35,767 bases of DNA. Source: Planoprotostelium fungivorum (Eukaryota > Evosea > Variosea > Cavosteliida > Cavosteliaceae). The notes under the pieces were generated by a model. That model searched no databases and was not told where the DNA came from. It saw nothing but the letters and a program-made list of their open reading frames with translations. Below, one piece after another: positions 2,163-28,353 of the stretch. The stretch lies in contig MDYQ01000258.1 in NCBI GenBank assembly GCA_003024175.1, forward strand, positions 1 to 35,767, given 5' to 3'. Position numbers and translations under genes: made by a program. Within the stretch, counting starts at the first letter, position 1. The number at the start of each line of letters is the position of its first letter.

Positions 2163-5100
2163 TCAGCTCTCTCCTCCTCTATTGCTCACGTGTCCCTTGG
2201 CTCCATCCACATTTGCCCTTCTCATGGTCAGTGTCTTTGTATCGTATTTGGCCTGGTTTCCAACAGATCCTGATCTCTGTGTGGCCTGCGTTGTTGTCTG
2301 AGTGGGTGAGGCAAGAGACACTGTTGGTCTCTTGCTGACATTTGGGTTGGACATGCTCTTGGTCACTTCAGGAAATTCAGGTGGTGGTGGGTTGTAGTTC
2401 GATCGGAGATTCCTAGGAGATTCCCCTCTCTCTGATTGCATGGAGGCACGCAGGGCAATGCGTGAAGCTGCATCAAATATTTGAGCCTGTGTGATGGTTG
2501 CCACAGGGTTACTGTTCAAGTGTAAGAATCAATCTATAACGAGCCACAACTCACCCCCTGAGGGTAGACGATCGACGGGCCCTTGCGTGGACTTGTACAT
2601 TTTTTGATGAGATCTCTTGCAGTTTTGTCAGCTCGGCAGGACTGTTGCATTGTACTGTGACAATCTCCACGTTGTCGTTGACTCGAAATTGGTAGAATAA
2701 CTCTGTGTCAAATGAGCCGCACGTCAATCGATCTACAACGCTCACCGTTGTTGGCCGTCTCTTCCCCCATTACGATGTCATCGAAGGATACGAGACATCT
2801 CACCTTGTGCTTCTTCTCTGTTACCTCCTCTGCTATGAGCAGAGTGTCGTTGAACACGTACACGGCCCAATCTTTTGGTCCCTTCCCAGATATCGTGACG
2901 GGTCTGATGCCTTCGAAGAGTAACCTCCTCTCTCTTCCATCTTCCAACGGTGGTAACTTGTTACCGGTTCGTTTGTCCACTTTTTTCACCTGTAAGAGTT
3001 TTTAATTTCTGTCGCGTTGTAGTTGACTCACCTTCTCTTCTTCTTCAGCCTTTCTCTGTCTCTCGTTGACAAAGGTGACGACCTTGGAGATCTTCTGCAG
3101 GGTGAGCTGGATGGAAAGGTAGTCGATTGCCTTCTCCGGTGTGGCTTTCAGTAGTTCCTGTCGTTTCATTCAGTCTCAGTGATGGGAAGATTTTGTGATG
3201 TGATGATCGTGTGTGATGATCATATCATGTGTGATGATCGTGCATGTTGATCATGTGATGATGTGATGATGTGATGTGATGATCACCTTGAATAAGAGCG
3301 GATATTTACACAATCTCTGCAACGGCTTCACGAGGAACGAGTTCAGATCCAGTCCCCTCGTCTCCGGTTGCTTTCTCACGTTCTACAACGCGTCACCCCT
3401 TTCACTCTCCCTCCTCTCACCTCCATAAATTCACGGAATGATTTCTGCTTGGCGGTCAACTTGATGATAAATCGCGTTGACTTCTGCTGTTTCGATACGT
3501 AATCTGCGTAAACCTTGAGGGCCTCGCAGGCTTCCTCAAATATGCGACTCGCAGTTGCGACTCCGACTTCGGCCGCATCTTCGAGTTTGACCATGTCCTC
3601 TAGCTCCATCAAAATGTTCATATTGACGCCTGTCACTCCATCAGCTCGACCATCTACAACACCCACCCTGTATCGTCATAATATTTCCGAATATCCTCTC
3701 CTGCTGCGCCTCGCTGATGATGTTCTGCGGAACCGTCTGCGAATTTTCGACGGAATTTCACGCACCTGGGCACGGAGTGGTTGGATGAAGACTTCCTCTA
3801 TGAGTCGCAGATCAGATACGTAGGCCCTCTCTGTGTCCACCAGCTCTTGCATCACCCTCTTCTTCTGTCGTTTCATCTTGTCCTCTTTACTGTCTCCTGC
3901 CTTGGCGGGAGCGCTCTTGAACGCATCGTCCACGATGATCTTACCACCTTCCGGTAGATGCCATCTACAACGAGTCAGTTCGTCGTGTGTGCGAAATCTC
4001 GATCGTACCGTGTGTCCATGGATTGTGCGTTGTAGTAACACTTCCTTCCATCCTCTGAAGCACACTCGTGCCATTCGTTCACCACCACTGCAGATGGATC
4101 CGTCCATGATGTGTCGTTGTTGACTGGATTCCAATAATAGAGATGACCCTCCTCGGTCGTCAGCCTCTGCCATCCACTGTGTCCGGACTACAACGCGTCA
4201 CCGGAAGATTGGAGAAATGTCGAGTCACCTGGTGGCTCGTTGTAGTGGGTGAATTACCATCGGTAGGATTTAATAAATGTCGACTGCCTGGAGGTGACCG
4301 GATGAGGCCGGGTCTACCTTCCGGTGGGGGTGGTGGCAGTCTCATCTGTTTTGTTCGACGAAATTTCACGTGGAGATGGTGGAAAACTCACGTTCTGTGG
4401 CCCGGCCGAACGATTTCGCGATTTGGGAAGGTTCTCTGGTGTGTTGATCTTTCTCGTCATGATGTTGTTCGTCTCCTGTCTCTTCTTCTCTACCTCGAAT
4501 AAATCGTCCCTCGAATATTGTTTCTCTGTTTCTCCGTCAGAATTGACGGACTACAACGAGGCGGGAGGCTCACCTTTCATAAAATTGAATCGGTTGTCGA
4601 TGGGAGAGGCCACGACGGGTGGTGGTAAGCTTGCCAATAGAGATTCCATATCTTGATTCGAATTCGTCTCTTCTTTCTCCCCTTTCTTCTCTACGCTCTT
4701 TTCTTTCTCTTCCTCTCCTCTTTCTTCTCCCTTCTCTGTTGTCCCTCTTGTCTCTTCCTCTTTTTCTTCCTTTTTCTCTTGGTTGTTCTCGTCTTCTTTT
4801 GCTTCTTTCTTCTCTTCCTTTTTCTCTTCTTTTTTCTCTTCTTTTTTTTCTTCCTTTTTCTCTTCTTTCTCTTCCTTCTTCTCTTCTTTCTCTTCCTTCT
4901 TCTCATTGCAGTTGTTCACATCGGTCAGATCGATCTGTGGTGGCTTTCGAATGGTAGGGATGGGAGGCTGTGGACGCGACGGCGGCGGCCTCGACACGTA
5001 CTGCGTCGCCGACGTCGTCTGTGACCTCTGTCGAGGTGCTTCCAACTGACTCTGACTCCGTGGTATCTGTCTCCCTTTCAATCCTCGCTCCCGGCATTTT

Positions 5101-5607
5101 TTTAAACGATGACTTCTCACCACTTTCTGTGAGGGGGTGGGAGGTAGCTGTCTGGTCTCTTTCACCGGTCGGATCGCTGTACGGTGTCACGTTGGTGGAG
5201 AATTTGCGGGAAACTCACTCTGCACTGGATTGGCTGATGCTTTCGGAGCGGGTGCAGGCGGTGCGATGGTGTTACGAGGTGATGTCTTTGGTGGCTGTGG
5301 ATTTGAGCCGACGGCGGGTGGTTGTATGATGATGGAAGATCGATTCTGACGGGGTACAGGTGGTGGTGGATTCGAGGGTGGACTACTCAATGGAGATGGT
5401 GATGATGTAGAGGTGGATCCGGTCGCCGCTGTGCGTGTCAGCATACTCCTCGCGTTCGCCAATGCTTCGCTCGAATCGGTGTGGATCAGTCGTCGTTTCG
5501 TCAACGTGGCTTGTCGAACCTGAAAAAGATGAGACCTACGCTCGAACGGAGTTGTGTATTACCCATTCGGAAGAGGTCTGGTCGGGTTTAGCCGGTGGCT
5601 GAGACAT
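2163..5607 (-). CDS. WW-DH-PH Rho guanine-nucleotide exchange factor
   Basis: Multi-exon gene on the minus strand of about 960 codons. It starts MSQPPAKPDQTSSEW at 5607 and ends at the TGA at 2163. In order: a Pro/Ser-rich N-terminus; a Lys/Glu-repeat stretch (about 4680-4915); two WW domains (one beginning GWQRLTTEEGHLYYWN, one EWHECASEDGRKCYYN); a DH domain beginning RVMQELVDTERAYVSDLR and containing the conserved FLVKPLQRLCKYPLLFK helix; a PH domain (WAVYVFNDTLLIAEEV); and a Ser/Thr-rich tail. DH-PH proteins load GTP onto Rho/Rac GTPases, and WW domains bind proline-rich partners; both are family knowledge. Intron joins were chosen so that the DH and WW cores read through in frame; for example the second WW core is restored only by splicing at the TAG at 3965. 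At least seven of its introns contain the CGTTGTAG motif. Confidence 0.9.
4680..4915 (-). repeat. Lys/Glu codon repeat inside the RhoGEF
   Basis: A purine-rich run on the coding strand (TTTCTTCTCTT on the plus strand) encodes dozens of near-tandem KKEEKEE repeats. It is likely an extended charged helix or a disordered spacer between the Pro-rich N-terminus and the WW domains. It also creates long spurious frames on the opposite strand. Confidence 0.85.
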
Positions 5608-5828
5608 GATCTCCTTAGTGTGGATCTCGAACGTGTTTGTGGTGTCCGACTGGATGAAACCCAATGTTAAGGTTGTATCGAGCCTCACAACTGAGACTCG
5701 GATGTCCCTGCCTGAAAGTAATCCGAAGTTCTTTACAAGTTGTTACTGTCAGCTGATGCTGCTGTTGGTCGATCGAAAAATGTTGCAACTGTCAAAATTT
5801 TCCAACATCACATCAGGAGAGGAGGATC

Positions 5829-6983
5829 ATGGACGTATCGGTCATCTTAGCACTCGTGTTCGCCGCTGCTATCGGAGCTTATCTCCTTTATGTACGTTCG
5901 AAGACTCCCAAGCCAGTTCAAGAACAACCCAGAGTTCAAGTTGTTGAGAGGAGAGCTGCGCAACAGCAGCAACAGGAGGAACAAAACATAGAAGAAGAGG
6001 TCAGTTATGGATTCTTGACCATATTGTTCCAAACATTGGATTACGTAGTCATTTAATGAACGGGTACAGGGTAATCGAGCGAACAGAAGAGGTCTGGGAC
6101 GTCTGAGAAATAGACAACAACAGAATGATGTGCCTCGCGAGCCCGATTATGTCAGACCAGATGGTAATACAAGCTCTCTCCGATCACACTCATTGACGAA
6201 CGCAGATGAACCCGCAGAAGAAGAAGAAGACACGTCTGGTCTCGGTAAGAAGAGAGCCGCAAAGCTTGCCATGAAGGAAGAGAAGAGACAGCAACGCGAA
6301 GCGATGGAATACGAGAGAGAACAGAGGAGAAAGGATGAAGAGAAAGCCTTCGAGGCCAGAAAGGCGAAAGAGGCAGAGGAAGCTGAGGAGGAGAGAAAGA
6401 AGGTGATGAGTGATTTCACGTCGCTCACCACTCACCATCATCAGGAAGAAGAAATCGAGAGACAGAAGAAGTTGAGAGAACAGCAAGAAGAAGAAGAATA
6501 CCAGCAGATGAGAAAAGAGATGGAGGTGATGTAATACCCTGGAAGAATCATTTGTTCACATTAATTCAGGTACTCGGCGAGGGCACACAGGTCAGCGACC
6601 AAGCCGAGAGAGAGGCGAGGATGGGTGAGGGGCCAGAGTGGCTGATTGTAGATTGACCCCACCAGGCGAGTTCGTCGAGTATATCTGGAAGAACAAGGTG
6701 GTTCTCCTCTCAGATTTGGCCTCCGAGTTCAACATGAAAGTTGCCGTGAGCATCATCGTGGATCACGAACATCATGGAACTGATGTGAGCACAGGAGGTC
6801 ATAGAACAGATCAACAAGTTGGAGACCGAAGGAAAGTTGAACGGTGTGACCGATGATAGAGGAAAGTACATTGCCATCACGAAGGAGGAGATGGACAAAG
6901 TGGCTGTCTACATCAAAAGAAGAGGAAGAGTAAGCATAGAGGAGATCGCCAAGGAGTCCAATCGACTGATTCAATTGAATTGA
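5829..6983 (+). CDS. DDRGK1: DDRGK domain-containing protein 1 (UFMylation)
   Basis: Starts MDVSVILALVFAAAIGAYLL, an N-terminal membrane anchor. A long Glu/Lys/Arg-rich coiled region follows (about 6220-6530). The C-terminal PCI/winged-helix-like DDRGK domain contains GEFVEYIWKNKVVLLSDLA, then VIEQINKLETEGKLNGV, the name-giving DDRGKYI, and a final KRRGRVSIEEIAKESN before the TGA at 6981-6983. Five or six short introns are removed; one (about 6621-6661) contains a TTGTAGATTGACCCC variant of the intron motif. DDRGK1/UFBP1 is known as the ER-membrane partner of the UFL1 ligase that attaches UFM1. Divergent from the RhoGEF with 221 bp between the start codons. Confidence 0.93.
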
Positions 6984-6999
6984 TAAAGAAAACAAGAAG

Positions 7000-7550
7000 T
7001 GTCTCATCCTTCGATGATGAATAATGACTTCCCCTCCATCCACTACACGAGACGGACAGATGAGACACTTCTTTAGACATTGACGTGTCTTCTATATGCA
7101 TCGGCTGTCTGCGCCTCTACTATTCTCCGCTGTGTCCGAGTCTCTTGTTTCCCAGGACCCGCCGTGGTGAATTCAACGACCAACTACTACTATATTAATA
7201 CATCCTCTCCACAGCACAACACCTCAATCTCCTTCCATTTTAGACGTCTAGATAGCTTCTATCTTCTTTGAGCGTGTCAGTGGAGCTCACCACACACTAC
7301 CACAGATAGAGGTGAGGAGGAGCCTTGGAGTGCACCACAGAGAACCATAGAATCTCGGGCGGTTTTCGCACATCACGTTGGTTTCTTAAGAGGAGGGCCT
7401 TAGGTGGTCTATCGATTTTTCTCTCAATTTCTGAACGGTGGGGTAGACTCGTCTGCTCCCCGCCCCAACACGCCTCAAGCACATCAGCAACATCATCATA
7501 TCACAACGCCACGACGATACGATTACGGATTATAATAGATACATTATCAG
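7000..7550. other. Intergenic or 5' leader, no gene recognised
   Basis: Between the DDRGK1 stop and the pseudokinase start. It contains only short frames and a few homopurine or AT runs. It probably holds the 3' UTR of DDRGK1 and the promoter and 5' UTR of the next gene. Confidence 0.5.
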
Positions 7551-9212
7551 ATGAGAGGAAACATTGGACGGAGACCCTTGATGAGGCCCAGATCAGAATC
7601 TGCAGAGAGAGAACTGCTAGATAGGCTGGTGCAAGACGCAAAGACATCATATAGCAGTCCAGATACAAGCATCGTGGATCAATGGAGTGATTCTGACGGA
7701 GAAAATCTGGATAGGGACTCGAACGATGATGTCAGAGGTGTGTCTGGATACTACACGGTTGGGACCATGAACGTGACTCACGCCTTCTTTAGACAAGACG
7801 GAGGACTCCCCTCAAGGAGCTTACAGAGATGTAATGATTGGTACAATGGAGGAACCCACGTGAGACGAAACACAAATCCAACTTACAAGCCTAAATGACA
7901 TCACAGGATAGGGGAGAGGAAGAGGAGCTCTTCTGTCTTTCGGTTCGAGGGTAATGATGGACGGTTTCGAACCAACTCCATCACGGATGAGCCAGATCCA
8001 TTCTTGCCTCTTTCAGGTATCATATTGTTCGTCTTCTGATGCAGGACGACGCCTCCCACGATCTCATTCCAATCAGATGCCTCCGGAGCCCACGAGAAAC
8101 GACTGAGTTTAGAGATGCACAATGAGCGTCTGGAGGTCAAACTGTCCGACATCAAGACAGAAGGCATCATCACGAGAGAGCTCGGTTTCATCGTCAAAAA
8201 GTGAAACCCCATCTTCCATCATCTCACACTCAAACTGATGTCCATCAGAGCACGAGTCCATGGCATCCAAGTTGTAGTGACCGAATTCATCGGCAAAGAA
8301 GAAGACCACGAACTCTTCGCTTACGAAGCCAAAGCCCTGCATCACCTCCGACACAATCACATCATGCAGTTCATAGGTGATGCATCATCGTTGGCGATGA
8401 ACACCCTCTAAACCTCTCAGGCTACACTTGTTCGCCTCCCTGCATCGTCTACGACTACTCGGACGTTACACCTCTGTCTACGCTGCTGCTGAGAAAGAGC
8501 CTGCGAATCAGTCACGACAATATATTTAAGACATTGATGGCCGTAGCCCGTGCCATGAGTTACATCCATTCACAGACACCGGAGATCCTCCACAAGAGTG
8601 AGTTCTACACGTCAATGACGATCGCGATCGTGATGATCATGTCACGATCGATCGATGATCGATGATCGATGTGGAGTTGATGATGTGCAGGGCTCAATTG
8701 TAAAGCGGTGATGATATCAGACAACTGGAACGACATCAAACTGACAAATTTCGCCAACACTTCGTACGAGACTGCTCTACCCCTGCAGATCACGTGGGTC
8801 ACGTGACCTGAAATCTCGCTGACTTTTCCAGCTTACCGGAGGGTAAAGTGTACACGACGAAGAGTGACTGCTACATGTACGGTGTCTTGATTTGGGAGTG
8901 CCTCACGCGCGTCATTGCCACGTCATCACAGATGGCCACCATACACATACCCAAGGTGGACCCACTTGACTCGTTGTAGTCTGACGTTCTCAGACTTGTC
9001 CACCGTTTCTAAAAGATCTGATGACGAGCTGCTGGCACAAACAATCGAACGAGAGGCCTGACTTCAGAGACATCACCTTCTTCCTGAAGAAGATGAACAA
9101 GTGGTTCGCACAGAAGCACAACTCACCCATACAGACCTCCTACCAATGTATACAATTAGAAACGGCACCCGAAGCCAGTGGAGAAGCGGTGGGTGGTCGG
9201 TTCCCGCCATAA
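7551..9212 (+). CDS. TKL-like protein pseudokinase
   Basis: Start ATG at 7551 opens a long first exon rich in Asp/Ser, which ends NGGTH before a GTGAGACG donor. Joined exons give a kinase fold of about 300 residues ending at the TAA at 9210-9212. The beta-3 strand reads GIQVVVTEFI, so Thr stands where the ATP-binding Lys belongs. An alpha-C Glu is plausible in FAYEAKALHHLRHNHIM. The catalytic loop reads ILHKGLNCKAVMI, so HRD is lost, and DFG is NFA in LTNFANTS. The glycine loop is unrecognisable. The APE-like LPEGKVYTTKSDCYMYGVLIWE and the helix CWHKQSNERPDFRDI are well conserved and typical of tyrosine-kinase-like families. A regulatory or scaffold role is inferred. Its intron at about 8955-8992 carries CGTTGTAG. 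Confidence 0.82.
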
Positions 9213-9215
9213 TTA

Positions 9216-9803
9216 ATGTCGACAGATCTTGTACATAAAGGCATACAGCTACTGCACGGAGAGGGAAGAGAAGGAGAGCCGTGACCTCTTGTCGACATTG
9301 TGGAGGGACCTGGGTAGTCTGGGTGGTGCCTGCATCATGACGTCATCGTTTGGCAACATTGTACATCTGGTTCCATTCGATACCATTCACAAACTCAAAC
9401 AAGCCGAACTCACAGCCAGATATGAACGTGATGCCGCCGGTGATTTTATTTCATTTTATTGTTCATCTACAGAGCTGATGTAGACGCAGGGATCTACGAG
9501 AAAATTGAATCCATCAGCTGCACTCGCTTTGAGAGATCAATGTACGAGGCTGTTCGTTACGATCTACAACCAGACGCTCGTCTCTGTCTGTGCATGAGAT
9601 TCAATATATCACGACACACGGAATCTAAATTAAGAGACGCTATGAGAAACCTCCTCCCCTCCTTCAGAAGCATCCAAGGCTACCGCGGCATCCTATGCAT
9701 GTGGTTGACGGACACCAGCAACCTGTGTCTCTTCTTAGACGAGAAGGAGAGCTTCAAGCAGCTGAAGAGTGAGCGACGAGAAGAGAAGGAAGAGACTGAT
9801 TGA
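9216..9803 (+). CDS. Unknown protein, start uncertain
   Basis: Two good coding blocks: SRDLLSTLWRDLGSLGGACI onward (about 9270-9440) and, after an intron with splice acceptor near 9482, AGIYEKIESISCTRFERSMY to the TGA at 9801-9803. The second block ends in an acidic/basic tail. I do not recognise the family. The ATG at 9216 does not stay in frame with the first block, so the start or a small first intron is unresolved, and these exons might belong to the preceding transcript. No membrane segment or signal peptide is evident. Confidence 0.5.
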
Positions 9804-10014
9804 AGCGTCAGGATCTGGCATTGTGCCCAAGTTGTGGTGTGGCATTGTAGAACAGTGTGGGCTGTCCATGCCCAGTTTCACGAGGTACGACGTGTTGTCC
9901 ACGTGGTTGCCACCGATATCTACATCGGCTGTAGAATAAAACACGCGCCTCACTTTTGCTCGTTACAAATGGATGGAAATCGAACGCCGTTGTGACGCTA
10001 ACGTGCTTCTTCAT
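9735..10014 (-). CDS. Possible hotdog-fold thioesterase-like fragment
   Basis: An ATG at 10012-10014 opens MKKHVSVTTAFDFHPFVTSK. Removing a 25-nt GT...AG segment joins it in frame to TDVDIGGNHVDNTSYLVKLG, which resembles the D-x-D-x-x-G-H-V-N-N-x-x-Y signature of acyl thioesterases. The rest is hydrophobic, runs antisense into the 3' end of the neighbouring plus-strand gene, and is not convincing. It is much shorter than a full hotdog domain, so it may be a small divergent gene, a remnant or chance. The other bases of 9804-10199 show nothing else. Confidence 0.3.
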
Positions 10015-12340: not shown

Positions 12341-15300
12341 ATGAGATGGTGAGCAAGTGGTTCTTTGGAAGATAGACTCATCCTCGTGTAGAGTAACAAC
12401 AAGGTTTACGATAATGTTTCCGTGGCCAGTTTAGAGTCCACCAAGATCAGAGATGGTTGGTTGAAGAAATGCTCCGAGAGCAGTGGAGTTACGACTCGTT
12501 GGAACAAGAGATGGATCGTCATCACACCCAAAGTCATCTTCTACTTCTCTTCGAAGACGGTAATGCAACCTCCGTACCTTCTTCAAACCTCTGAAACTCT
12601 ACAGGACAAATCTCCCGCTGGTTACTTTGAGATGGAGAGATACAATGAAGTGAGCTACCTCTCTGAAGAGCCGACTGAATGAACCTTAACGAAATGACAG
12701 GTGGTTGATGAGGATGATACTAAGGGTGCCTCCTTCACCTTCAAGCTTCACAACTCCCTTTCATCCATGAGAAGAGGACTCTTTGCCGCCGAATCGGAAG
12801 AGGGTGATGCATCGTATCATCCCCATTCCATTCACATCATACAGAGAAGAAGCAGTGGATCCAAGTCTTCCAAGAGGCCATCAAGGTACACCACCTCCTT
12901 CCATCCACAACCTCCAACTGACTCCCATCACAGAGAGCCGAGACACAGCAGCTCCTCAAGTCCAACAGTCCCGTTCGCGTCCACGGCACCTTCTACATCC
13001 GCGGTGATCGTCTCATCTTCCACGCTGTATCATCTCACTGATCCATCGCAGTTGCAGAGGCCCGCAACCTCCTCGCCTCAGATGCCAACGGTCTCTCCGA
13101 TCCATACTGCGTCATCCAAGTCGGTACGTCTTTCTATTCTCTCTAGATGATTTTAAAGTGATTTAATGTTTCAGGCTCTCACTCTGCGGTGACTCAGACC
13201 ATTTGGAAGTCTCTCAATCCTCTCTGGGGTGAAGAGTTCACCTTCAACATGGACAATTCCTTACCGAAGACGAACGCGGTAGTTACCGTGTTCGATCGTG
13301 ACGAAGTGGGAAAAGACGAGATCGTGAGGGAGGAGGAGAGGAGGAGAATTGACTCGTTGTAGATGGGAACGTACCGCATGCCCATACGTAACTTGTCGAT
13401 CCACCAGCAGGCCGTGGAGAACTGGTGGCCCCTGGAGCATCTCAACAGCAAGGTTCGATTTTTTTTGAAATTTGAATCGTTCTGATTGGCGCCAGAATTT
13501 CGTGAGTGGTGAGATCTTGGTGGAGTGTCTCTACAGGCTCTCGACTTCTCAGGTCGACATTCGAATCATCGAAGGTGAGAAGCTTCAGACGAAATAAAAT
13601 GAAATAAAATACCGATCGACCGCAGGAAGAGGATTGGCACAGAAAGACGCCAATGGTTTCTCTGACGTGAGTCGATGACTGTCGGTTTCAATTGAATGAG
13701 ACTGACTGTATCAGCCTTACATCAAAGCCTCCCACGGAAAAGAAAAGTTCACCAGCCCCGTCATCAAGAAGACTCTCAACCCCGTCTGGAACTTCTCCTG
13801 CACCTTGTGAGTTCATCTACAACGTTGTAGATTGACCCCCCCACAGCAAGGTCACGATCGACACCGTCAAGGAAGGAATCAAATTGATCGTCAGGGACAA
13901 AGACATGGTCGGAGCCTCCGAATTCATGGGATCCGTGAGTCGATCACAAATGTCGACGCCTGAATGTCGACAGACCACCGTCCCCCTCCACACCCTCCCC
14001 GCCAACGTGAAGGTCTCCAACTGGTACGCCTTATCGTCTGAAGGTTTAGAGGAGACAAAGATGAAGCTTCCCTCTTTCGGTGGTAACACGGACAAGTCGC
14101 CCGGTGATATTCGACTGAGAATGAAGTACACCGTGAGCGTTGTAGATGGAAGGTTCCGGGAAAATGACACTCCACAGGAGTTGAAGATCCTGAAGTTGGA
14201 CCAGTACGAGGAATTGTGGAAGGTAGTCGATACGCAGGATTACGCAGTTGTAGATGCTCTGGGAGAGGTAACAACATCTTTTCGATGTCTATTCACTTTC
14301 TTTTGTCTTTCGGCTGACGAAAATAGGTGACCGGCGAGAGAGACGATTGTGCCAAGAACTTGGTCAGGCTCTTCCAGGTGCGGTAGAAACGATTTATCCG
14401 TATTCACCCGGAGTCAGGCGAAATCGAAGGCCATTCCCATGCTCATCCACCTCACCACCAGAGAAGTCAACGACACCCGTGAGATCTCCTCGAAATTTGA
14501 TCCGTCACCACATTCATCACCATCCCCTCACATCAAACATCCATCACATCCAACATCCATTCCATCCCATCCAACATCCATTCCATCCCATCCAACATCC
14601 ATTCCATCCCATCCAACATCCATTCCATCACATCATTGATTGACATCGAACAGCCTCTGCCGATGTCATCTTCCGCGGTAACTCCATCGCCACCAAGTCC
14701 CTGGACTATTACATGAAGTTGATGGGAGGTCCATTCTTGAAGAGGACCATCGGCAGGAAAGTGAGAGAGGTGAGAGAAGAGTCGGATGATGTGAACGTGA
14801 TTGAAGATGAAAGATCTTGGCCTCGAAGCGATCGGCAGAGGTGGATCCCAGCAAGTTGGACAGCTCCGAGAAGTTGGAGGAGAATCAAAAGTATCTCGTG
14901 GAGACCGTAAAATCGGTGTGCGATCTCATCATCGCCTCCGTCGAGCAGACTCCCATGTGAGAACATTTTATTTACATTTAATTCACCTCTCGTACTCTTT
15001 TCATCTCGTTTAACTCGACTTCTTTAAGTTTTGTAATATAGAATCATAATGACGAATCGATATGATGGAACACAACTGACCGTTGTAGTGAGATGAGATT
15101 GGTCTTTGCCGCGCTGCAGAAGGCAGTGACTGCCAAGTACGGTGACGATCACGTGACCCGCTACACTTCCATCTCCGGTGACATTGATTGTCCATCTACA
15201 ACGTTGTAATTCGGACAGGTTTCATCTTTTTGAGATTCTGGGGTCCCGCCGTTCTGGGTCCCAAATTATTCGGACTCACCGATGAGCACCCAGGTTTCGT

Positions 15301-15959: not shown

Positions 15960-17861
15960 CTACGTCCCTTCTGTATTCATCACGTTGATCTTCGTATAGT
16001 GTGGTGGCGTGTACTTGTAGACCACCCTCAGCTTACCTTGTCTCCCGTCAACTCTCTTCCATCATTCTCCTCACCGTTTCCATTCGAGAGGCTGAGCCAC
16101 GTGTCTTTCGTTTGATCGGGTTCTAAATCGTTCGTGTTTAACTCTACCCTGCCGATCATCGTGTCGACTGGGTTTCCCGGTGTGTTTCCTTTCACGGCCT
16201 GCAGGACGTTTGAGACGGGAATTGGGACGGGGATTGGGACTCACCAGGCCGATCTGTCCGAATTCCCGTTTCACCGGAATTTCCATCAGTTCGTCCCAGA
16301 CGGCAGACTTCATTCCCTGAGCCAATCGAGAGTTGTAGACGTTGATCCCGTTGTAGACGCTCACAAAGGGTACCGCCTTTTCTGTACCATTTCTCAGAAG
16401 GTGAAAATCGAATGAAATCTCACCGTCTTTCAGAACCAATCTCGCCTCCACTAATCTGAGATACAACACTCCTCTCACAGCTGCATTCGAATGGTGAGAT
16501 ACGAAAGAATAAAAGGAAATAAATCCAATATCGAAACGTTTTCTCACCGACAGTGCGGCTGATCTCGTCTTCGGAATCAGAGAAGAGAGCGAGTTTCCCA
16601 TCAAATTCAGAGTCCTCGTTTCGATCTACAACGACCTCGTCCACCTTCGAATCCCCCGGTCTGTAATGCAAGATGGTGATCTGGTTCGGCAGCACCATTG
16701 TGGTGGTGATCAGATGTTCCAGAGTCCGGTAGATCCAGTCCTGATTCGGTCAACGAACGTACGTACGTAACGTACGTACCTCGACGAAGGGAAAATCGAG
16801 TACGTTTACGCCCCTCATGGGTTTGATCTGGACTTGAAATTCCGGTAACTTCAAGAAGGAGCACTTGTAGGTGTGGAGGTACGGAGGGCGAGAGAGAAAA
16901 GTCAAGTCCATTCTCAGCTGCGAGCGTGAGGATTGGCGGGTTGTAGATGGCTCACCCTCCCGCTCAGCTTGAGGTCCGTGATGGAAATTGGGAGTCTCAA
17001 ATTGAGAAATTTCCCGCCGAGGGTGACCTCGATGACGGCCTGCAGCTCTCCAAAGTAACTCGTGTCGAGATCAAACGACTGAACCGATCAATCTACAACG
17101 ATGTAGATGGTCGCGACGGCCTCACGTAATCCAAATGCGGTGGCTTCGTACCCGATATGCTGCTGAATGTGGGTGGTGTGAGCCCGAACGAGATGTGAGA
17201 CACACTGATGGCTTCCTGTACTCTCCGTTATTCTCTCTCCCCGCATCACTCGATGGCACTCACGACACCAGCCGGTCGATTCTTCTCCAACGAATTTTCA
17301 AAGATATCTCTCATGGTATTCGTCGTAATCCTGGCGATGTTGTCGTGGAGGTGCGGCCACAGGACGCTGAAGAGCTGATTCAGCCACCGTGTCGTCTCTG
17401 ATTTCTGTTTCGTCTGGGAGAACTGAGAGAGGGTCAGAGTGGTTGGGAGAAGGGGAATACCAGTGAAGGTGTGACGTTGACTCTGGCGTTCACGATGGAT
17501 TTCCTGCTCTTCTCTTTCCTCTGTTTCTCTAGGTGGTAGATGCCGTACATCAACACGAACACCCCTTTAGAAGATGAGATTCGAGCGTGAAATCATCTTC
17601 TGTCGTGTGATGATATGTTGATGATACGTTGATGATATGTTGATGATATGTTGATCATATGTTGATCATATGTTGATGGAGAGAACTCACACAGCATGGA
17701 GAATCTGAAATAACCGACGACGAAACAGGCACCGACTAAAGATAACAGCTGTGCGATCTGTACAGGTTAAACAGATGAAACGTTGGATCTATAAATAGAA
17801 CACTCACCTTGTCTTCTCTGTCCCAAACGGATTTGGGCCTTACAGGATCGATTTGGGACAT
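15960..17861 (-). CDS. Extended-synaptotagmin/tricalbin-like SMP-C2 protein
   Basis: Start MSQIDPVRPKSVWDREDK at 17861. A hydrophobic hairpin follows (IAQLLSLVGACFVVGYF and MLWVFVLMYGIYHL), suggesting ER anchoring. An SMP-type lipid-transfer domain comes next: RWLNQLFSVLWPHLHDNIAR, ISFGLTPPTFSSISG, SYFGELQAVIEVTLGG, FLNLRLPISITDLKLSG and MRGVNVLDFPFV, ending near IYRTLEHLITTTMVLP. A C2 domain follows (GVLYLRLVEARLVLKDG, AVWDELMEIPV), and the final strand is KLRVVYKYTPPHYTKIN before the TAG at 15960-15962. E-Syts/tricalbins tether ER to plasma membrane and transfer lipids; that role is from family knowledge. Only one C2 is visible. Its stop codon is 4 bp from the convergent RasGAP stop. Confidence 0.85.
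17580..17688 (-). repeat. 11-bp tandem repeat in E-Syt intron
   Basis: Within an intron, about six tandem copies of TGATGATATGT or TGATCATATGT occur between about 17608 and 17676. Confidence 0.75.
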
Positions 17862-20090: not shown

Positions 20091-20186
20091 GAGCCAGCTG
20101 CCTGACTTAGATGGCCTCTTCTCTGTGGCACAATTGATTAGTCCCCGAGAAAAAGCCCTGGTTTTCGGCAGTTTGTCACGAGCATA

Positions 20187-21540: not shown

Positions 21541-21566
21541 AAATCGTTTTTGTGTGTTTTATCTTC

Positions 21567-22284
21567 TCATGCGGTGCGGTAGAGCTGGAGGTGGCAGTAT
21601 GGACAGTGGTCCTTCAGTTTGAGCCATTGAAGGATGCACTCGCGGTGGAAATAGTGGTTCGTGCAGACAGGCAGCTTCACCACATCCCCCTGTTCATCCT
21701 ATGATGATGATGAGAACGCAGGTGAAATGAGGTGTGATTTACCTCTTCGAATTCGACTTGACAGACCATGCACTTCTCTGTCCTGTACGTTGAGGCATCC
21801 ACATCCTCAAACAATCCTTCCTCATTTCTAGCGATCCTTCTGACCATCCTCAAGTTACCTCCGCGATTGATCTGTATACGTTAAAATGACGGAAGAGTTT
21901 GGAGGGATGATGATACTTGTGCATATCGAACACCTTCGATCGGAAATTGGGAGGTTGGCCACACGAGGTAGAGTATATAACCCCCATTGTTCTTGAACCA
22001 CCCTTTAGAAAGGGCAACCTCTTGGTCTCCATTTTGAAATGCCTCTTCGATCTGCATGTTACTCTCCATGTCGTAAGGGATCCATTGGGTTGGATCAGCA
22101 GCCCATTGCCACGTGACTTCGACGTCTTTCGTGTCGGTTCGTACCTGCAAGATGGTGATCCCAGATGTGAACGGATATTCACCAAATAGCAGGCATTACA
22201 CGTGAGATCGTAATCCAAATTGATGAATGTACAACGTTCACAGGACCAAGTTCCTTCTTCCAAGGGGATCGTTGCATCTCCCAT
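21567..22284 (-). CDS. NZF-WWE-RING E3 ubiquitin ligase
   Basis: Start MGDATIPLEEGTWSCERCTF at 22284. An N-terminal RanBP2/NZF zinc finger reads W-x-C-x2-C-TF-x-N-x6-C-x2-C (residues about 13-33). A WWE domain follows (EVTWQWAADPTQWIPYDMES, then NGGYILYLVWPTSQFPIEGV). The C-terminus is a RING-H2 finger: EKCMVCQVEFEE, intron, GDVVKLPVCTNHYFHRECIL, KDHCPYCHLQLYRTA, with the TGA at 21567-21569. About 220 residues. WWE domains bind ADP-ribose units in poly-ADP-ribose, NZF fingers with a TF dipeptide bind ubiquitin, and RING-H2 recruits E2 enzymes; these are family properties. RNF146 is the nearest familiar RING-WWE protein but, as I recall it, lacks the NZF. Confidence 0.88.
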
Positions 22285-22406
22285 GTGATCTGACTTCTTC
22301 GAGCTGTTAGCTCTGTGAAATGTTTAACGTTGTTTCACGCAGTGAAGGGCGTGATGCGATCTGCTTGGTGACAGAAAAAACTGTGTCAGTCCACCAACGC
22401 GATCAT

Positions 22407-23646
22407 TTATTTCAATAAATTGTGCAACATCTTCAACGACTCCTCAATAGCTCCTTCTGCCCCCTCGTACATCTTGATGCATTTCTTCATCTCATTTGCT
22501 ACATTATTTACGTTAGTCTCTCGTCACGGTATTCTATTCACCATAACTGTCTATCTCCTCTGGAAAATCCACCAGAACATTATACACGATCGAAAAACAG
22601 ACCGCAGTGGTGTCTTCATGTGCATCCTCATCCTTAGCCATACATATCATAGTCGTCATGATCTCTTTCCTCTCTTGGTCCCTCTTCAGATGGTGGGTCA
22701 TGGGTGCCAGGGTTGTCATCATCTCAATGATCTGAAGCATGGACGTCACCGTCTCGGAGCTGTCTCTTGTTTACGAACGATCAAAGAGAGTTTCACGGTC
22801 GGTAGATCTCATGTTCACTCCACCTGATGTGCTCCGCTCGACGCACAACGTGAATCACGGCCGAATAGATGCCACCCTCGATGTAGTCAGAGCAGAATTG
22901 ATTCTCCCTGAACAACAGAGAGAGCAAGAGACCACTCGTCCTCTCTAATAGGGTGGAGTTTGTGTTACGTTCTATGATCTCCTTCAGTCTGGCCTGCACC
23001 AATTGTTCCCTGAAGATGTTCACGGCCGACGTAGATGCAGAATACGGTGAGCCCTCCTGGCAGTAGAGTGTTACGGAGAAGAGCCGCAGGACTTCAGAGA
23101 GGGTGAGTGAATCATCGCATTCTAATAGGATGTTCCGTAGCGTGAGACTGGGTGTGATCTCGTGGATGTCTGACGTCTGGAAGAGAGAGGATGGTACTTC
23201 ATTGGACGAGCACAGGTTGGCCATGATACCAATGATGACTTCCTGAGCGAGGTGAGTCGTGGAAAGAGTGAAAGTGTCACGTTGAGACGATTCGAATGAT
23301 CCCTCCAATCGATGATGATCTGATGGGCGATCTGGATGATTCCATGCTTTTTGAGAGTCTGTGCGTGCTCTGGTATCACGGATATATCCCACAAGAAGGT
23401 TCCCGACTCGATCATCTTCTCCTCTTCTCTGACGAACTCAGAAGCATGTCCTTCGTCATCTACTTAGCGTTCGAATCAGCTGTCAGAGATCTAAAACTCA
23501 CCGCAGTTCTCAAGGGTGACTGCATCCTGCTCTCCTTCAGGAGTCGATCGCCTCAGCTGTTTGGGTAGTAAATTGATGATGTGACTGAGGATCACGGATG
23601 GATTTACGAAAGACTCGTTGTCTTCGTGGCTTCCCTCGTGATCCAT
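22407..23646 (-). CDS. SAAL1-like armadillo-type protein
   Basis: Start MDHEGSHEDNESFVNPSVIL at 23646. Exons join to EEEKMIESGTFLWDISVIPE, TLKKHGIIQIAHQIIIDWRD, EVIIGIMANLCSSNEVPSSL, DSLTLSEVLRLFSVTLYCQ, SSETVTSMLQIIEMMTTLAP, FSIVYNVLVDFPEEID and a final KMYEGAEGAIEESLKMLHNL before the TAA at 22407-22409. The FLWDISVIPEHA block and the GIMANLC repeat match my memory of SAAL1 (serum amyloid A-like 1), a helical-repeat protein linked to proliferation in animals. Function here is unknown. Confidence 0.75.
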
Positions 23647-23781
23647 CCGTTCCGTCTTGCTGATGATGGTGTGACAACGGCCCAAAAAGATTAAAATACA
23701 TATTTTTGTGGAATATCGAACAGGCTGCTATACACAAACCACTTTATTCGCGGTCCTCCTGGTTGCAATTCCATTTCACAA

Positions 23782-24700
23782 TTATTCAGAGGCATCAGAG
23801 TCGGGAGCAATCTCCCAGTATTGGTCTCCCTTGGCTTTGGTCAACCACTTTCGGTACATCTTTGTCAACTTCCAACGGCCGTTCTGGTTCAGCTCTTTTC
23901 TGGCGGATTTGAAGTACCTTCGGTTGTGACTCAGGGTGTCTTGCAGTGCTCTCTTGATAGTTCGTCTGTCTCGGATGAGTTCATGTTTTGTGCATGAAAC
24001 GCATTCACTTGTGATGGGACTTCTGTGGGATGTAGTGGCTGTGAGTGAGGAGGAGAGGGTAGATGTCTTGGTTCAATGTGTACCAGTTCTTCGGATGGCG
24101 CAGCGTGAGGTAAGACAAGATGGCGAGGACCACCTCTCGGCTAAACATGCGTGAGAAGAAGGAGAGAATGTATGGGACTCACCAGCCCAGTGATTTCGAG
24201 TTGAGGTTCTGATCTTCGGAGTCGAGAAGTGACTGTATCCCATGAGTGCACAGGTAGCATGAGGAGTCCTTGCATTCTGAAACCCCCGTCTCGTTCTCTG
24301 TCTCTGTCTGTAACTCCGCTCTGGTCGGCAGCTTGACCTCGACCTTCTTTGTCGAGCCTTTCTGTTCCGCCTCAAACTGTGACATTACGTACTGGAGGGA
24401 TCTCTGGTTCGACATCCAACCTCCGTTAGGCAGCGGTGGTGTGACTGTAACTGTCTCGAGTGTTGTCGAGGGTCTAAGAAAAGATGGTGCCGTTGGAGTC
24501 GCCAGAAGAGAATATGTTGATGGGAGAGTAGTACTCGCAGGGACTGAGGGAGTAGAGCTGGATCTAAGAAAAGACCCCCCGTTCGCTGCCATCGAGCTCC
24601 ATAATGGTGCGGTGTTTAGAAATGCTGGAATGGAAGAGATGGGTGGTAGCTCTAATTTGTGAGTGCTCCGGTTGAGGAAAGAGGGTAGAGTGTCTTCCAT
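23782..24700 (-). CDS. Ser/Thr-rich protein with possible winged-helix C-terminus
   Basis: Start MEDTLPSFLNRSTHKLELPP at 24700. A long Ser/Thr/Pro-rich N-terminal half is followed by SECKDSSCYLCTHGIQSLLD, then after an intron REVVLAILSYLTLRHPKNWY, THSHYIPQKSHHK and RALQDTLSHNRRYFKSARKE, GRWKLTKMYRKWLTKAKGD, ending at the TAA at 23782-23784. The block A-L-x-x-x-L-S-H-N-x-x-F followed by a G-R-W-K-L strand resembles the recognition-helix/wing part of forkhead-type winged helices. That is a weak visual similarity only. A DNA-binding regulator is a guess. Confidence 0.55.
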
Positions 24701-25130
24701 CTCCTATACGCAAGTTTTCACGTGATGCTGCTGTCTGCAACTTGTGGTTGAGCGGCTTATCTAGACCAATTTCCGATGTTCCTGTAGCCATAGCGCTATT
24801 AATCCGAGATTTACCATAGCAACCGTCATCTTCTTTGACCGATATAGCTCAGGGAAACCACAGATCTCATTCTCTCTTTTATCCTCTGGAAAGAAAGAGG
24901 ATACAGGTGATCACACTCTCCTCTCTGGCCAGCTTAAAGAGTCCAACACAACCGGCTGAAACAGAAAAGTACGCCGACTTTGGTTCTGGGTAAGCCGAAT
25001 CAATTGAGAACGTTGACCAAGTCTTTCGGGGATGTCGTTGACAACTCAGGGGGGACTAAGGAGTTAGATGTGGAGTCACGTGAGCGACAACCACAGATTC
25101 GAGAATCATATACGCAACGACCACATCACC

Positions 25131-25670
25131 ATGCCAGAGATCGAAGATCGACCGACATCATGCAGTGAGTGGGAGTGATGACGGATGGGAGGGTGACTGA
25201 TGGCTCGATCAGATCATATGGACTTTCCTCTTGCACCACTTGAGATGATTCCACAACCTGAGATGGATGCATCGCAGGGGTTTCCATTCAAAATGGACGA
25301 TCCATTTCGTTTCCGTGAGTCAGCTCTCAAAGACATTTTTCATCTCAAATGAAATTGTGTGACGAATCGAAAATGTGACAATGGTATGCAGTCTTGATGT
25401 TTCATCTTTTCAACATGCCGGCCATCGCCTTCACGAGGATGTTTACTGGAGGGATGATAGACTCAGAGGGACCATATGGAATGTATCTTACCGTCCTCTG
25501 TGTGTTACTCTGGTCAGCAGCCTCATGGTGTCTCGGATGTTATTTCTGGTACAGGTGAACCGCGCAGCGTCCTCTTTATGTCTCTAATGATACCAAGATG
25601 GATTCTCCCACGTATGGCACGAAACTATTACGAAGAGCACAGGAGACACTTCTTCTTGTTTCACTATTGA
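25131..25670 (+). CDS. Small membrane protein, unknown family
   Basis: Start MPEIEDRPTSC at 25131. Joining in phase gives NHMDFPLAPLEMIPQPEMDA and KMDDPFRFLLMFHLFNMPAI, then an intermediate loop FTRMFTGGMIDSEGPYGMY, a long hydrophobic helix LTVLCVLLWSAASWCLGC, and a basic C-terminal tail (WILPRMARNYYEEHRRHFFL) before the TGA at 25668-25670. About 135 residues with one or two membrane helices. The last intron (about 25555-25599) is supported by the in-frame aromatic/basic continuation. The stop is 58 bp from the convergent RasGAP stop. Confidence 0.6.
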
Positions 25671-25728
25671 TGATATATAAATATGTACAGAGACGAACAT
25701 CCATCGCCATAATACATGCACTCTGTGT

Positions 25729-28353
25729 TTATTTATCGATAGCCTCTGCTTCTTCTGGTATAGATTCGGATAGTCTCAGAGCTATTATGTTGTCTGGTAT
25801 CTGCTTGAAGTGAGACAAAGTCTTTGTCTGTGACGTGTAGAACATGATGATGATGATGATGTCACCTTTGAATCTGGGAAGTAAGTCTTCAGTTCGTCAA
25901 ACGAAGAGAGATACTTCAGTTTGTTATAGAATTTCGTGCTGATGAAGGGACGGAAGGTACCCAGCAGGAGTCTCAGCCAAATGTTGGCTCTCAGTATCAA
26001 TAGGGCCTTCACGTTCTTCTTCATCCTGATGCATTCTAAATCCCCTTGCATGCGATGACGATGATCGTGTCGATGATGATGATGATGATGCATGATGTGA
26101 TTCGTTCTGATAGATGGAGTAACCTACCTAGAATCAAATAGACTGTATGCTTGTCTCAACCAAGCCAACGAAGGTCTGTGATGAGAATCCAGTGGAGCGT
26201 GCAGCCACACGATGAGGTACTCTTCGTTCCTGATCTGCTCGTGCATGAACTGCACAAAATACAACAGAACCGATTCCATGTCCACCTACTCCACATCACC
26301 CACTTGGCTCGTTGTAGACTCACCCTCTTTCCCACGAGAACATTCGGATTGAACACCATGACCGGTGAGTCGCTGGCATCTCTACCGGCGATGAACATGA
26401 GCTGTCGCGTGTCAACGTCAGACTACAACGAGCCACGCCTCACCCTAAGGTTGGCGATGTGAGAGAGATTTCTCGACTGAGCGAGGGAGAGGAGGGTCAT
26501 GTGTTCCGTCTGCATGGAGAGGGGTGGTGGCCCGATGGTGCTGATTCGATGTAGAACTTCTTTCACCCTCGTCAACGTCTCGTTCTGTCGGTGAATGTCA
26601 GTGTCTTTCATCTCATGGATCGACGCGATGATGATGATGATCACCTCCTCCCGATCACTCGTGTTGACGTGCATCTTTGTGACGAATTCAATGATCTTGT
26701 CGTTGTTCTTGTGGATGTAATTGAATATGAGATTCAGTGAACTCTCCACTTCCATGTCAGACGGTTTCGGTGCGTAGTCGGACACTCTCCCGCCTCGCGG
26801 TGGCTTTCGAATTTCAAAAAAGAGCCGTTACATCACTCCTCACCTGGGCGAGGTCCTCCACGTATTGTTCCACTTTGACCATGTTCGTGTTGAAAAACTT
26901 TGTCAACTTCATCATGTACTCTTCTTTCCCCACGTTCTGCGATCTCGTTCCATTCGCTAGTGTCTGGACGACCTTAGAGACCATGATGAGATTCCTCTGA
27001 CTCTTCGGTGTAACTGTGGTAGGTGAGCTGTCGAACTACAACGAGACAACTCACGATCGGGCATGAGGCGAGTCGGTGGGGTGACAATGAACGGGTTGAA
27101 AAATCGGAGAAAAATGAAATTGGCCACAATGGCATTGTCTTCTCCCTTGTACTTCTCGTTGATGCACTTACGTAACTGTACGTACACGTTACGTAGCTCA
27201 CTGTGAAAATGAGCGGGAGAGTGATGACATTCAATCGTCGCTTTCGATGTACGATGAAGCTCGTGTGAATCGAAAGAGTAATTCTCACTCTGGAAATTCA
27301 TCTACAGAAGCATACACGCGATTGAGAAGGTGCTGTGTGTGCTTTTCAAGAGCGACCAGATTCTTCTCCGTACTTTCGGTCATCTTCAGTCTCTTGGGGT
27401 CGATCTATTCATCCATCAGTATGTTGAGAGAGAGGAACTATTTTGCGTCTCATCTACAACGTTGTAGATCTCACCTCGAAGGACAGTTCGGCTTGTACGA
27501 TCTTCCTGACGGGCTCGGAGAGAACGTCCTCCATGTACTTTGTCGCCAACCTCTTCGTGTGGTATGTCATCAGACGACTCGACAAGTTGTTGCCTCGGAA
27601 GAGGGTCGTAGATTGAACTGGATGAGTTGAATCTCACATCCATGATGGAAGATGTAGAGTTCACACCTGCGCTGGCCACTTCCGCTTGAAAGAGTTGATG
27701 CAGTAGTTGGTCGATGAGAGAGAGCGAGGAGTATAGATTATATATACAAGAGATGAGACCTCCAACGTCCTCTACCGATGCCGATTCGGTTATGGCATTT
27801 AAGAGTACTACGTGATTAGGGCCGGTCACGAGAGCCTCTGAGAATTGAATCGCACGATTCAACATCTCGTCGGGCATTCTGCCTGTAAACATTCGCTGGA
27901 TGGTTGATTGGACACCTGCGAAGGTAAATGCACGAATCCCGTTGGCACGAGGCTCACTGGGAGGAAATTCTTCCTTCGATTCCTGGCTGTATGGGGGATC
28001 GACTACGATGATTTCTTGGTATTTAGAGGATGAGTCTTCCAATGTCTGCCTCGGTATCGCCAGAGAAGGGATCTCTACGGTTGTTTCTTTCGTCTTACTC
28101 ATTTTTCTAGAAGATCTCTTCGAGGAAGATGATTTAGACTATCCGCTTTTCAGCCATGAGTCGAGCTTATTATATCTATCACCCTCGGGCTTACTGGAGG
28201 CGATTCAACAGGTGATCCAGGTACATGTGGGTCTACGATCTCGTTATCGATACTCATATCTTCAGACAAAGTCTTCCTGTCTCCATTCTTCTTCATGAAT
28301 GTGGAAGACATTCGCTTAGCGAGGAAAGATAGTGTAGTCCCATCTGCCGCCAT
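25729..28353 (-). CDS. RasGAP with C-terminal CRAL-TRIO (Sec14-like) domain
   Basis: Start MAADGTTLSFLAKRMSSTFM at 28353; an in-phase join leads to SKSSSSKRSSRKMSKTKETT. RasGAP blocks: STLFRGNNLSSRLMTYHTKR (Arg-finger region), RKIVQAELSFEIDPKRLK, AIVANFIFLRFFNPFIVTPP, LMVSKVVQTLANGTRSQNVG-like, MMKLTKFFNTNMVKVEQYVE. The C-terminal half has VMVFNPNVLVGKRV, MESVLLYFVQFMHEQI, and the CRAL-TRIO signature ANIWLRLLLGTFRPFISTKF followed by YNKLKYLSSFDELKTYFP, ending with ALRLSESIPEEAEAIDK and the TAA at 25729-25731. Neurofibromin also couples a GAP domain to a Sec14-like module. Introns at about 26284-26324, 26409-26451, 27028-27054 and 27402-27482 carry the CTACAACG motif. Confidence 0.88.
27462..27479. 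repeat. Perfect 18-bp intronic palindrome, second copy
   Basis: The same ATCTACAACGTTGTAGAT as at 13815, here just inside the 5' splice site of an intron in the minus-strand RasGAP/CRAL-TRIO gene. Confidence 0.9.

Follow-up and report, generated by a model that had tools for sequence, protein, structure and literature searches.

Genes and word copies in the window

The window, the whole 35,767-nucleotide stretch of contig MDYQ01000258.1, includes a RhoGEF/WW gene, a kinase-like gene, a RasGAP/CRAL-TRIO gene and a kinesin gene, and over its length the exact 8-mer CGTTGTAG occurs 24 times, both strands counted (Table 1). Shuffled windows had a mean of 0.32 copies and never more than 2, and when up to one mismatch was allowed there were 63 sites against 16.8 expected. 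According to our gene models, 19 of the 24 copies lie in 17 introns and five in predicted coding exons (4028, 4238, 16349, 16626 and 32560). The recurrent word described in a sequence-only reading of this DNA is therefore real, and the intronic copies run both sense and antisense to transcription, as had been claimed.

Several of the positions then listed have changed. The copy placed at 4198 begins at 4188, and that at 27464 belongs to a full palindrome (27454-27467); the one at 13817 is intronic as described and is also palindromic (13817-13830). The sites at 2534, 3654, 16939 and 21113 are one-base variants, the supposedly intronic copy at 16349 falls in a segment that reads as coding sequence, and the other four exonic copies had been overlooked. 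The proposed coincidence with 3' splice sites holds at 3383, 3965, 13355 and 15081. At 4188 the gene finder picked an acceptor farther downstream, but the first Trp of a WW domain is recovered if splicing takes place at the motif, and the earlier assignment of a 3' splice site there is therefore probably right. Copies adjoining a 5' splice site, directly after GTGAG, were found as reported at 2733 and 14138. The kinesin gene (32024-34336) indeed has no exact copy in its 14 introns and a single exonic one, and the gene at 21567-23646 has no exact copy in its 10 introns.

Table 1. Exact copies of CGTTGTAG in the window, including those that form full or near palindromes.
Position	Strand	Feature
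2733..2740	-	Directly after 5' splice site GTGAG; RhoGEF/WW gene intron 2703-2745
3015..3022	+	Antisense to RhoGEF gene; intron 2990-3031
3383..3390	-	Last 8 nt (3' splice site); intron 3383-3420
3965..3972	-	Last 8 nt (3' splice site); intron 3965-4008
4028..4035	+	Antisense in RhoGEF/WW coding exon; encodes YN
4188..4195	-	Probable 3' splice site; intron 4188-4228
4238..4245	+	Antisense; predicted coding exon
4551..4558	-	RhoGEF intron 4526-4573
8972..8979	+	Kinase-like gene intron 8956-8993
13355..13362	+	Last 8 nt (3' splice site); intron 13324-13362
13817..13830	.	Full palindrome CTACAACGTTGTAG; intron 13807-13846
14138..14145	+	Directly after 5' splice site GTGAG; intron 14133-14177
15081..15088	+	Last 8 nt (3' splice site); intron 14957-15088
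15196..15209	.	Near-palindrome CTACAACGTTGTAA; intron 15178-15218
16349..16356	+	Antisense; predicted coding exon
16626..16633	-	Sense; predicted coding exon; encodes VVD
17093..17106	.	Near-palindrome CTACAACGATGTAG; intron 17079-17125
26310..26317	+	Antisense; RasGAP/CRAL-TRIO gene intron 26286-26323
26423..26430	-	Intron 26402-26443
27036..27043	-	Intron 27014-27054
27454..27467	.	Full palindrome CTACAACGTTGTAG; intron 27405-27474
32560..32567	-	Antisense in kinesin coding exon (SYLEIYNE); alone indistinguishable from chance

An exact word with a palindromic full form

Genome-wide there are 14,371 exact copies of CGTTGTAG (7,183 + 7,188) as opposed to 2,122 of the reversed word. With up to one mismatch the counts become 47,500 and 52,203, and there is therefore no halo of decayed copies. 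Among 602 introns we likewise found 97 exact copies against 30 for all one-mismatch forms summed (shuffle, 17.4).

The 8-mer is a half-site that pairs as a single palindrome, CTACAACGTTGTAG, at 750 places in the genome (control, 0). No other close spacing of two CGTTGTAG sites recurs: pairs within 60 bp comprise 22 palindromes and 5 others, each of the latter spacings being seen once. The full site is mostly embedded in ATCTACAACGTTGTAGAT, ATGGA tends to come next after a lone half-site, and an extended 19-mer form occurs 49 times (control, 0). In introns the flanks are largely scrambled. A pair of half-sites in inverted orientation at a constant distance is the arrangement of a homodimer site, and a sequence-specific protein probably binds CGTTGTAG/CTACAACGTTGTAG as a symmetric dimer, the binding itself being putative. 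At longer range no nucleosome-like periodicity was evident in the spacing of CGTTGTAG: pairs become slowly less frequent between 100 and 1500 bp apart, those closer than 100 bp are fewer (8), and within genes the spacing is about that of a random choice among eligible introns.

Distribution within genes

Gene models for 275.8 kb were made with our own self-trained HMM, without RNA-seq. Introns (49.2 kb) contain 144 copies of CGTTGTAG and 6 of the reversed control, coding exons (155.7 kb) 43 and 10, and intergenic DNA (71.0 kb) 5 and 10. When codons were shuffled synonymously, 10.0 exonic copies (sd 2.4) were expected in place of the 43, a few of which may lie in missed introns. A count by compartment, which the sequence-only reading had suggested for the whole genome, here gives an excess in introns and coding exons and none between genes: the word is dense in introns, as described, but not specific to them, coding exons being about 4-fold over synonymous shuffles.

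Within genes the word avoids both ends. Only 1/194 introns less than 400 bp from the start codon carry it, compared with 93/460 that are at least 1 kb away. Across the 21 complete genes that have two or more motif introns, it is present in 0/42 introns of the first 400 bp, 82/269 of the middle and 1/36 of the last 400 bp. A 50 kb holdout of low power, for which the gene finder was frozen, agrees in direction (0/35 introns less than 400 bp from the start and 9/84 at 1 kb or more; 0/25 at most 400 bp from the stop), with a 5' effect that alone is not significant (p 0.12); a prediction of more than 10% motif introns at 1-3 kb was not borne out there (6/63). Near the start no exonic copies were found and 0.76 expected by synonymous shuffle, which by itself carries little weight. 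One gene has as many as 17 copies, and with position controlled the motif introns are somewhat clustered by gene (164 vs 127, reached in 34/2000 shuffles).

Some bacteria maintain DNA uptake words by biased copying, and such words spread genome-wide irrespective of gene class, intergenic DNA included. A word kept in this manner would explain the sharp exact-match peak, the use of both strands and the codon-compatible exonic copies. We nevertheless regard it as very improbable here, as it should fill intergenic DNA and gene ends, which it does not (intergenic copies, 5 in 71 kb, number fewer than the reversed 10), and a copying drive should not skip the ciliary genes described below. The cyanobacterial highly iterated palindrome HIP1 (PMC4390886) is, as portrayed in that source, similar in being an exact palindromic word of high copy number, although bacterial.

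The positional pattern also bears on intron-mediated enhancement, whose motifs are described as short, located in transcribed sequence and able to act from exons (PMC12055998). CGTTGTAG resembles them as a short DNA motif within transcribed sequence, exons included, but these motifs, as presented in that account, are strongest near the gene start, where CGTTGTAG is almost lacking. On position, the one property compared, a signal of this kind is disfavoured.

Relation to splicing and to intron origin

Intronic copies are scattered but peak at the 3' splice site: 28 of the 144, of which 25 are lone and 3 palindromic, form the last 8 nt of their intron. Most copies at 3' splice sites are preceded by TGAC[T/G] and the left-flank preference is strongest there, all of which, along with the WW-domain reading at 4188, would suit an intronic splicing signal consisting mainly of the 3' splice site and an adjacent branch point. 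Palindromes apart, 25 copies at 3' splice sites and 48 other sense copies compare with 31 antisense, and the left-flank TGRCT is less preferred in antisense and exonic copies. Given this uneven orientation and flank pattern, splicing therefore accounts for part of the observations, and some RNA-level role is possible. As the explanation of the whole it is improbable: it leaves the 31 lone antisense copies, the exonic copies, the exclusion from both gene ends and the near-absence from three ciliary genes unexplained, and a splice signal should have one orientation and one fixed place and be restricted to introns. Sense copies in the context TGAC[T/G]CGTTGTAG also come with a 3' splice site and a stretch resembling a branch point already in place.

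A second possibility is that copies of a mobile element, an introner or tiny transposon, created the introns or the motif. High copy number and inverted-repeat symmetry are in keeping with this, as is the extended 19-mer, and in an all-against-all comparison of 864 introns of 25-120 nt, pairs with 80% identity across 25 nt or more numbered 12 between motif introns, 7 between other introns and 2 mixed. Two of six inspected motif pairs have a common extended form, one over 36 nt, but in the other four the likeness is mostly limited to the palindrome or near-palindrome with its flanks. The comparison did not show the introns to be copies of a repeat whose sequence is conserved. The one-mismatch halo is also missing, flanks are largely scrambled and motif introns are no different in median length from others (44 and 45 nt). 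Introners are characterized in one account as conserved sequences that are never in coding sequence (PMC3879977). While CGTTGTAG is like them a repeated sequence inside many introns, these introns have a core word in common, and exons carry the word too (43 vs 10 by synonymous shuffle). An introner origin is thus as implausible as the uptake-type word.

Companion words and gene classes

Zone limits of 450/250 bp, chosen post hoc, were used in the analyses of pair spacing, CpG, other words, palindromes, codon bias and ciliary genes. Among other words distributed like CGTTGTAG are TGACGTCA and GAAATTTC; ATGACGTC is found 55/1/1 times and AAATTTCA 37/0/2 times in interior introns, introns of the first 450 bp and intergenic DNA, respectively. 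The companions TGACGTCA, TCACGTGA and GAAATTTC are palindromic and TF-like. Simple CATCATCA/GATGATGA repeats rank high in the same scan, and therefore not every listed word is binding-site-like. Palindromic 8-mers are in excess in interior introns (292 vs 140), largely due to a few words, and we set aside the idea of a general palindrome excess.

The words are nearly missing from three ciliary genes, which are IFT140-like, axonemal dynein 6-like and dynein-2-like: in 10.9 kb of interior there is one copy of six words where 35 were expected, and for CGTTGTAG one against 15.5. Dynein heavy-chain matches at eleven places in the genome suggest that the organism makes cilia. From these three genes and a few for secreted enzymes we infer a class of 'vegetative genes' that carry the words. 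Of 58 genes, 31 have at least one CGTTGTAG per kb and 16 have none. Codon bias, a proxy for expression, did not differ between word-rich and word-free genes (medians 0.655 and 0.642, p 0.41), but the latter have shorter interiors (median 1,111 vs 1,974 bp, p 0.0015), and length or chance therefore explains part of this on/off split. CGTTGTAG shows the features of a gene-body mark, namely exclusion from gene ends and short genes and restriction to a class of genes, here a putative expression class.

The TF-like palindromic companions and the near-absence from ciliary genes would also be expected of intragenic enhancers, through which vegetative-stage transcription factors act on a gene's own promoter from inside, with no gene-body function. 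This is the strongest of the alternatives, although we consider it unlikely. Enhancer sites should also be found upstream and in first introns, yet intergenic copies are no more frequent than the reversed control and start-proximal introns are almost empty; the abundance within single genes, with a maximum of 17 copies, is likewise unfavourable.

Comparison with other gene-body signals

Gene-body methylation is absent from gene ends and from short genes. In the accounts consulted it marks the bodies of longer, constitutively expressed genes, is low in active promoters and has been proposed to suppress internal transcription (PMC8995044; PMC13345969). As described there for plants and invertebrates, it is like CGTTGTAG in occupying the bodies of longer genes and sparing the promoter-near part, and the word has a central CpG, so that it could itself be a target of cytosine methylation. 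We judge this scarcely more probable than an introner origin and slightly less so than splicing. CpG o/e is 0.86-0.98 across classes, with interior introns (0.98, or 0.95 once motif introns are left out) no lower than other classes (0.86-0.89), and introns hold few copies of the decay products TGTTGTAG and CATTGTAG (4 and 1 vs 97 of the exact word). Base composition thus bears no sign of methylation decay, and whereas gene-body methylation modifies CG sites in general, CGTTGTAG/CTACAACGTTGTAG is an exact DNA word of 8-14 bp. The PATCs of C. elegans introns differ as well: they are, by name, periodic A/T clusters, in contrast to an exact palindromic word that is also exonic and is excluded near the start.

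In the open-licence papers searched, the whole words CGTTGTAG and CTACAACG were not found and, of four long forms, only the 12-mer CTACAACGTTGT was, once in each of four papers with subjects unrelated by title. Among the titles listed for open-licence literature on related subjects, nothing resembling the CGTTGTAG system was seen.

A candidate gene-body element

Among the causes proposed in the sequence-only reading, a conserved binding site fits best, and both a splice signal and an introner remnant are disfavoured. We tentatively favour, at a little under even chances, a DNA-level gene-body element that lies inside the genes of a large class, for which CGTTGTAG would be the half-site of CTACAACGTTGTAG. 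Such an element would occupy freely variable intron sequence, and exons wherever codon choice permits. The bound protein, acting with partners on the companion words, may maintain suitable chromatin or elongation conditions over the bodies of vegetative genes, for example by suppressing transcription that arises inside them; close to a promoter or gene end, a site would interfere with normal initiation or termination and be selected against. For this functional part, which goes beyond the word patterns themselves, our confidence is at best equal to that in the element and perhaps lower.

The usual view is that gene bodies are marked through chromatin in the wake of transcription and not through words in the DNA. 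More speculatively, yet ahead of the enhancer explanation, gene-body identity might here be written in DNA, as a limited vocabulary of exact interior words, most of them palindromic, that are located in genes of the ordinary cell stage, kept out of gene ends and intergenic DNA and missing from stage-specific (ciliary) genes. Such a vocabulary would parallel gene-body methylation at the level of sequence, with DNA-binding proteins dedicated to reading it. Words of this kind would constrain codons and supply ready-made splice sites. If this is true, how a cell senses the interior of a gene would become testable by deleting or moving a site of 8-14 bp.

An exact word enriched inside genes

The 8-mer CGTTGTAG occurs 24 times in exact form on the two strands of the window, compared with a mean of 0.32 and a maximum of 2 in 100 dinucleotide shuffles. 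No other 8-mer in the window is as over-represented relative to a first-order model. The recurrence far above chance claimed in the sequence-only reading extends to the whole genome (36.86 Mb, 471 contigs), where there are 14,371 copies versus 2,122 of the same word read backwards, and where the 14-bp palindrome formed by two half-sites is found at 750 places (control, 0). When up to one mismatch to CGTTGTAG was allowed, there was no genome-wide excess over the control (47,500 vs 52,203); the word is thus exact, and not just the best-preserved part of a decaying family of copies.

Gene models were made with our own hidden Markov gene finder, trained on the sequence itself. Over 275.8 kb, made up of the window and 24 further 10-kb stretches, it returned 117 gene segments and 937 introns; the median intron length in its first run was 44 nt (600 introns). 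Segments of eight hand-picked predicted proteins all matched Pfam families (e.g. RasGAP with CRAL-TRIO, RhoGEF, Telomerase_RBD and citrate synthase), and one long predicted protein matched IFT140, which argues that the models are usable, with the proviso that individual splice sites can be wrong. At one window site where the 3' splice site had been assigned to the motif, we retain that assignment, the gene finder's acceptor there being a probable error.

Introns held 144 copies of CGTTGTAG per 49.2 kb (reversed word, 6) and exons 43 per 155.7 kb (reversed word, 10); intergenic DNA had no excess (5 per 71.0 kb vs 10). The exonic count is 4.3 times that of a synonymous-codon shuffle (10.0, sd 2.4), and the reading frames encode YN (23), VV (9), TT (7) and LQ (4). 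The motif had been described as intronic, which holds for 19 of the 24 window copies; the other five are exonic. Part of the 43 exonic copies are probably missed introns. One in-frame palindrome, in a RabGAP gene, is read in this way because, in our own reading, such a stretch is not expected in a TBC domain.

Coordinates of individual features (C1, C7 and L010 are contigs or loci elsewhere in the genome)
Feature	Sequence	Positions	Observation
Probable 3' splice site at the motif	window	4188	
Long direct repeat	window	1-1600	Unit about 768 bp, ~two copies; short palindromes, e.g. TACGCTAAGGCTTAGCGTA, lie within it
Telomerase reverse transcriptase gene (Telomerase_RBD)	C1	143520-147874	10 CGTTGTAG copies in 3.7 kb interior; tenth of 58 genes by density
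Palindrome in RabGAP/TLD gene	L010	2248-2261	In-frame, without stop, inside a predicted exon; probably a missed 39-nt intron, frame kept if retained
19-mer CGTTGTAGATGGAARATTC	C7	25346-25364	Example of the extended form
Holdout	C7	30-80 kb	Fresh 50 kb

The word is nearly absent from gene ends

CGTTGTAG was present in 1/194 introns less than 400 bp from the start codon, 93/460 introns at least 1 kb from it and 5/160 introns less than 400 bp from the stop codon. Genes shorter than 1 kb had it in 1/71 introns. As a control for short genes without the word, we took the 21 complete genes in which two or more introns carry it: there, it was present in 0/42 introns of the first 400 bp, 82/269 of the middle (p 2e-6) and 1/36 of the final 400 bp (p 1e-4), and in none of the 21 first introns and one of the 21 last introns. 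Exonic copies showed a clear interior excess (39 vs about 8.6 by synonymous shuffle); none of 39 lay less than 500 bp from the start, where the shuffle expects just 0.76, so this absence is weak evidence.

Three predictions were set before the frozen gene finder was applied to the holdout. As predicted, introns were enriched (14 copies per 8.6 kb vs 1 per 10.2 kb of intergenic DNA), and copies were absent from the 35 introns less than 400 bp from a start (this contrast alone is not significant, p 0.12); likewise none of the 14 exonic copies lay less than 500 bp from a start. At 1-3 kb, 6/63 introns (9.5%) carried the word, narrowly below the predicted >10%.

Anatomy of the element and companion words

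Lone intronic copies lie in both orientations relative to transcription, as had been noted (sense 25 at 3' splice sites + 48 elsewhere, antisense 31, palindromes excluded), the sense surplus being largely due to use as a 3' splice site. The right flank ATGG(A) is favoured in sense (A83 T77 G47 G68 A77, in percent) and antisense copies (A96 T87 G58 G48 A61). On the left, TGRCT stands out beside sense copies (e.g. T60 G62; at 3' splice sites T80 G76) and is weaker beside antisense ones (T48 G45), which suggests that part of it belongs to splicing. CGTTGTAG forms the intron's last 8 nt in 28 of the 144 intronic copies, most of them preceded by the branch-point-like TGAC[T/G]; in our view, splicing has put a DNA element to a second use in these copies.

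Within palindromes, conservation is good over the inner 18 bp, ATCTACAACGTTGTAGAT, and weak (38-52%) over the three bases beyond, TCC/GGA. Among close pairs of sites, 22 are palindromes and the five others (no more than 60 bp apart) each have a unique spacing; the single recurring arrangement looks like the site of a symmetric dimer. The extended 19-mer occurs at 49 places genome-wide (vs 0). It follows GTGAG in two sampled pairs, once per orientation relative to the gene, indicating that the flank itself is usable as a 5' splice site.

When the 298 8-mers present ten or more times in interior introns were compared with near-start introns and intergenic DNA, CGTTGTAG came out on top (141 interior, 1 near start, 5 intergenic), and ATGACGTC (55, 1, 1), AAATTTCA (37, 0, 2) and GAAATCTC (40, 1, 5) rank high together with shifted forms of these words and simple CATCATCA-type repeats. 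Genome-wide, ATGACGTCAT occurs at 1,603 places (vs 30) and GAAATTTC at 5,048 (vs 272). In the window and 29 loci elsewhere, TGACGTCA, GAAATTTC and GAAATCTC had a gene-interior distribution, less clear for GGCGGGAA and TCACGTGA. Holdout copies were few and mostly interior (TGACGTCA 3/4, GAAATTTC 6/6, GAAATCTC 5/5, GGCGGGAA 13/15, TCACGTGA 4/5; interior share, 27.2 of 50 kb). Words of this kind could be described as CRE-like, E-box-like or E2F-like.

Genes with and without the word

Of the 58 genes whose interior spans 600 bp or more, 31 have at least one copy per kb (maximum 4.9) and 16 have none; the latter are shorter inside (median 1,111 vs 1,974 bp), and codon bias did not differ between these two groups. 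The longest empty gene matches IFT140; a GMC oxidoreductase, an alpha-galactosidase and an aspartyl protease, whose starts resemble signal peptides, are also empty. We predicted in advance that axonemal dynein genes would be nearly empty, and then sampled 3.3 kb of the interior of two dynein heavy-chain genes each. The first is most similar to axonemal DNAH6, the second to cytoplasmic dynein 2, a motor that works in cilia. The samples contained 0 and 1 copies, the latter outside predicted introns. Over the 10.9 kb interior of these three ciliary genes, of which the IFT140 gene belonged to the discovery set and the dynein genes did not, six words of this kind total 1 copy versus 35 expected from the density in other genes. 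Dynein_heavy has sixteen matches on eleven contigs of the genome, suggesting a ciliated or flagellated organism. We infer that the genes rich in CGTTGTAG are those of the vegetative stage.

A predicted mark of gene bodies

These results come from one genome and self-made gene models, with zone limits set after inspection of the data and three genes in the ciliary comparison. The two orientations, the palindromic full site and the presence in introns and exons alike point to DNA rather than RNA, and the lack of intergenic excess with near-absence at both gene ends points to the gene body. Of the three causes first offered, a conserved binding site fits best, at the DNA level and in gene bodies; an introner-like remnant and a splice signal each fail a tested feature, as does an uptake word. 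The leading alternative is that the sites are ordinary enhancers acting from within genes. We favour a dimeric DNA-binding protein, predicted from the sequence pattern, that would bind the palindrome and act on gene bodies, its function being the least certain step. CpG depletion was not seen in base composition. In its distribution CGTTGTAG resembles gene-body methylation, a feature of longer, constitutive genes; one role proposed for such methylation is to suppress internal initiation (PMC8995044, PMC13345969). Unlike methylation, the mark here would be written as sequence.
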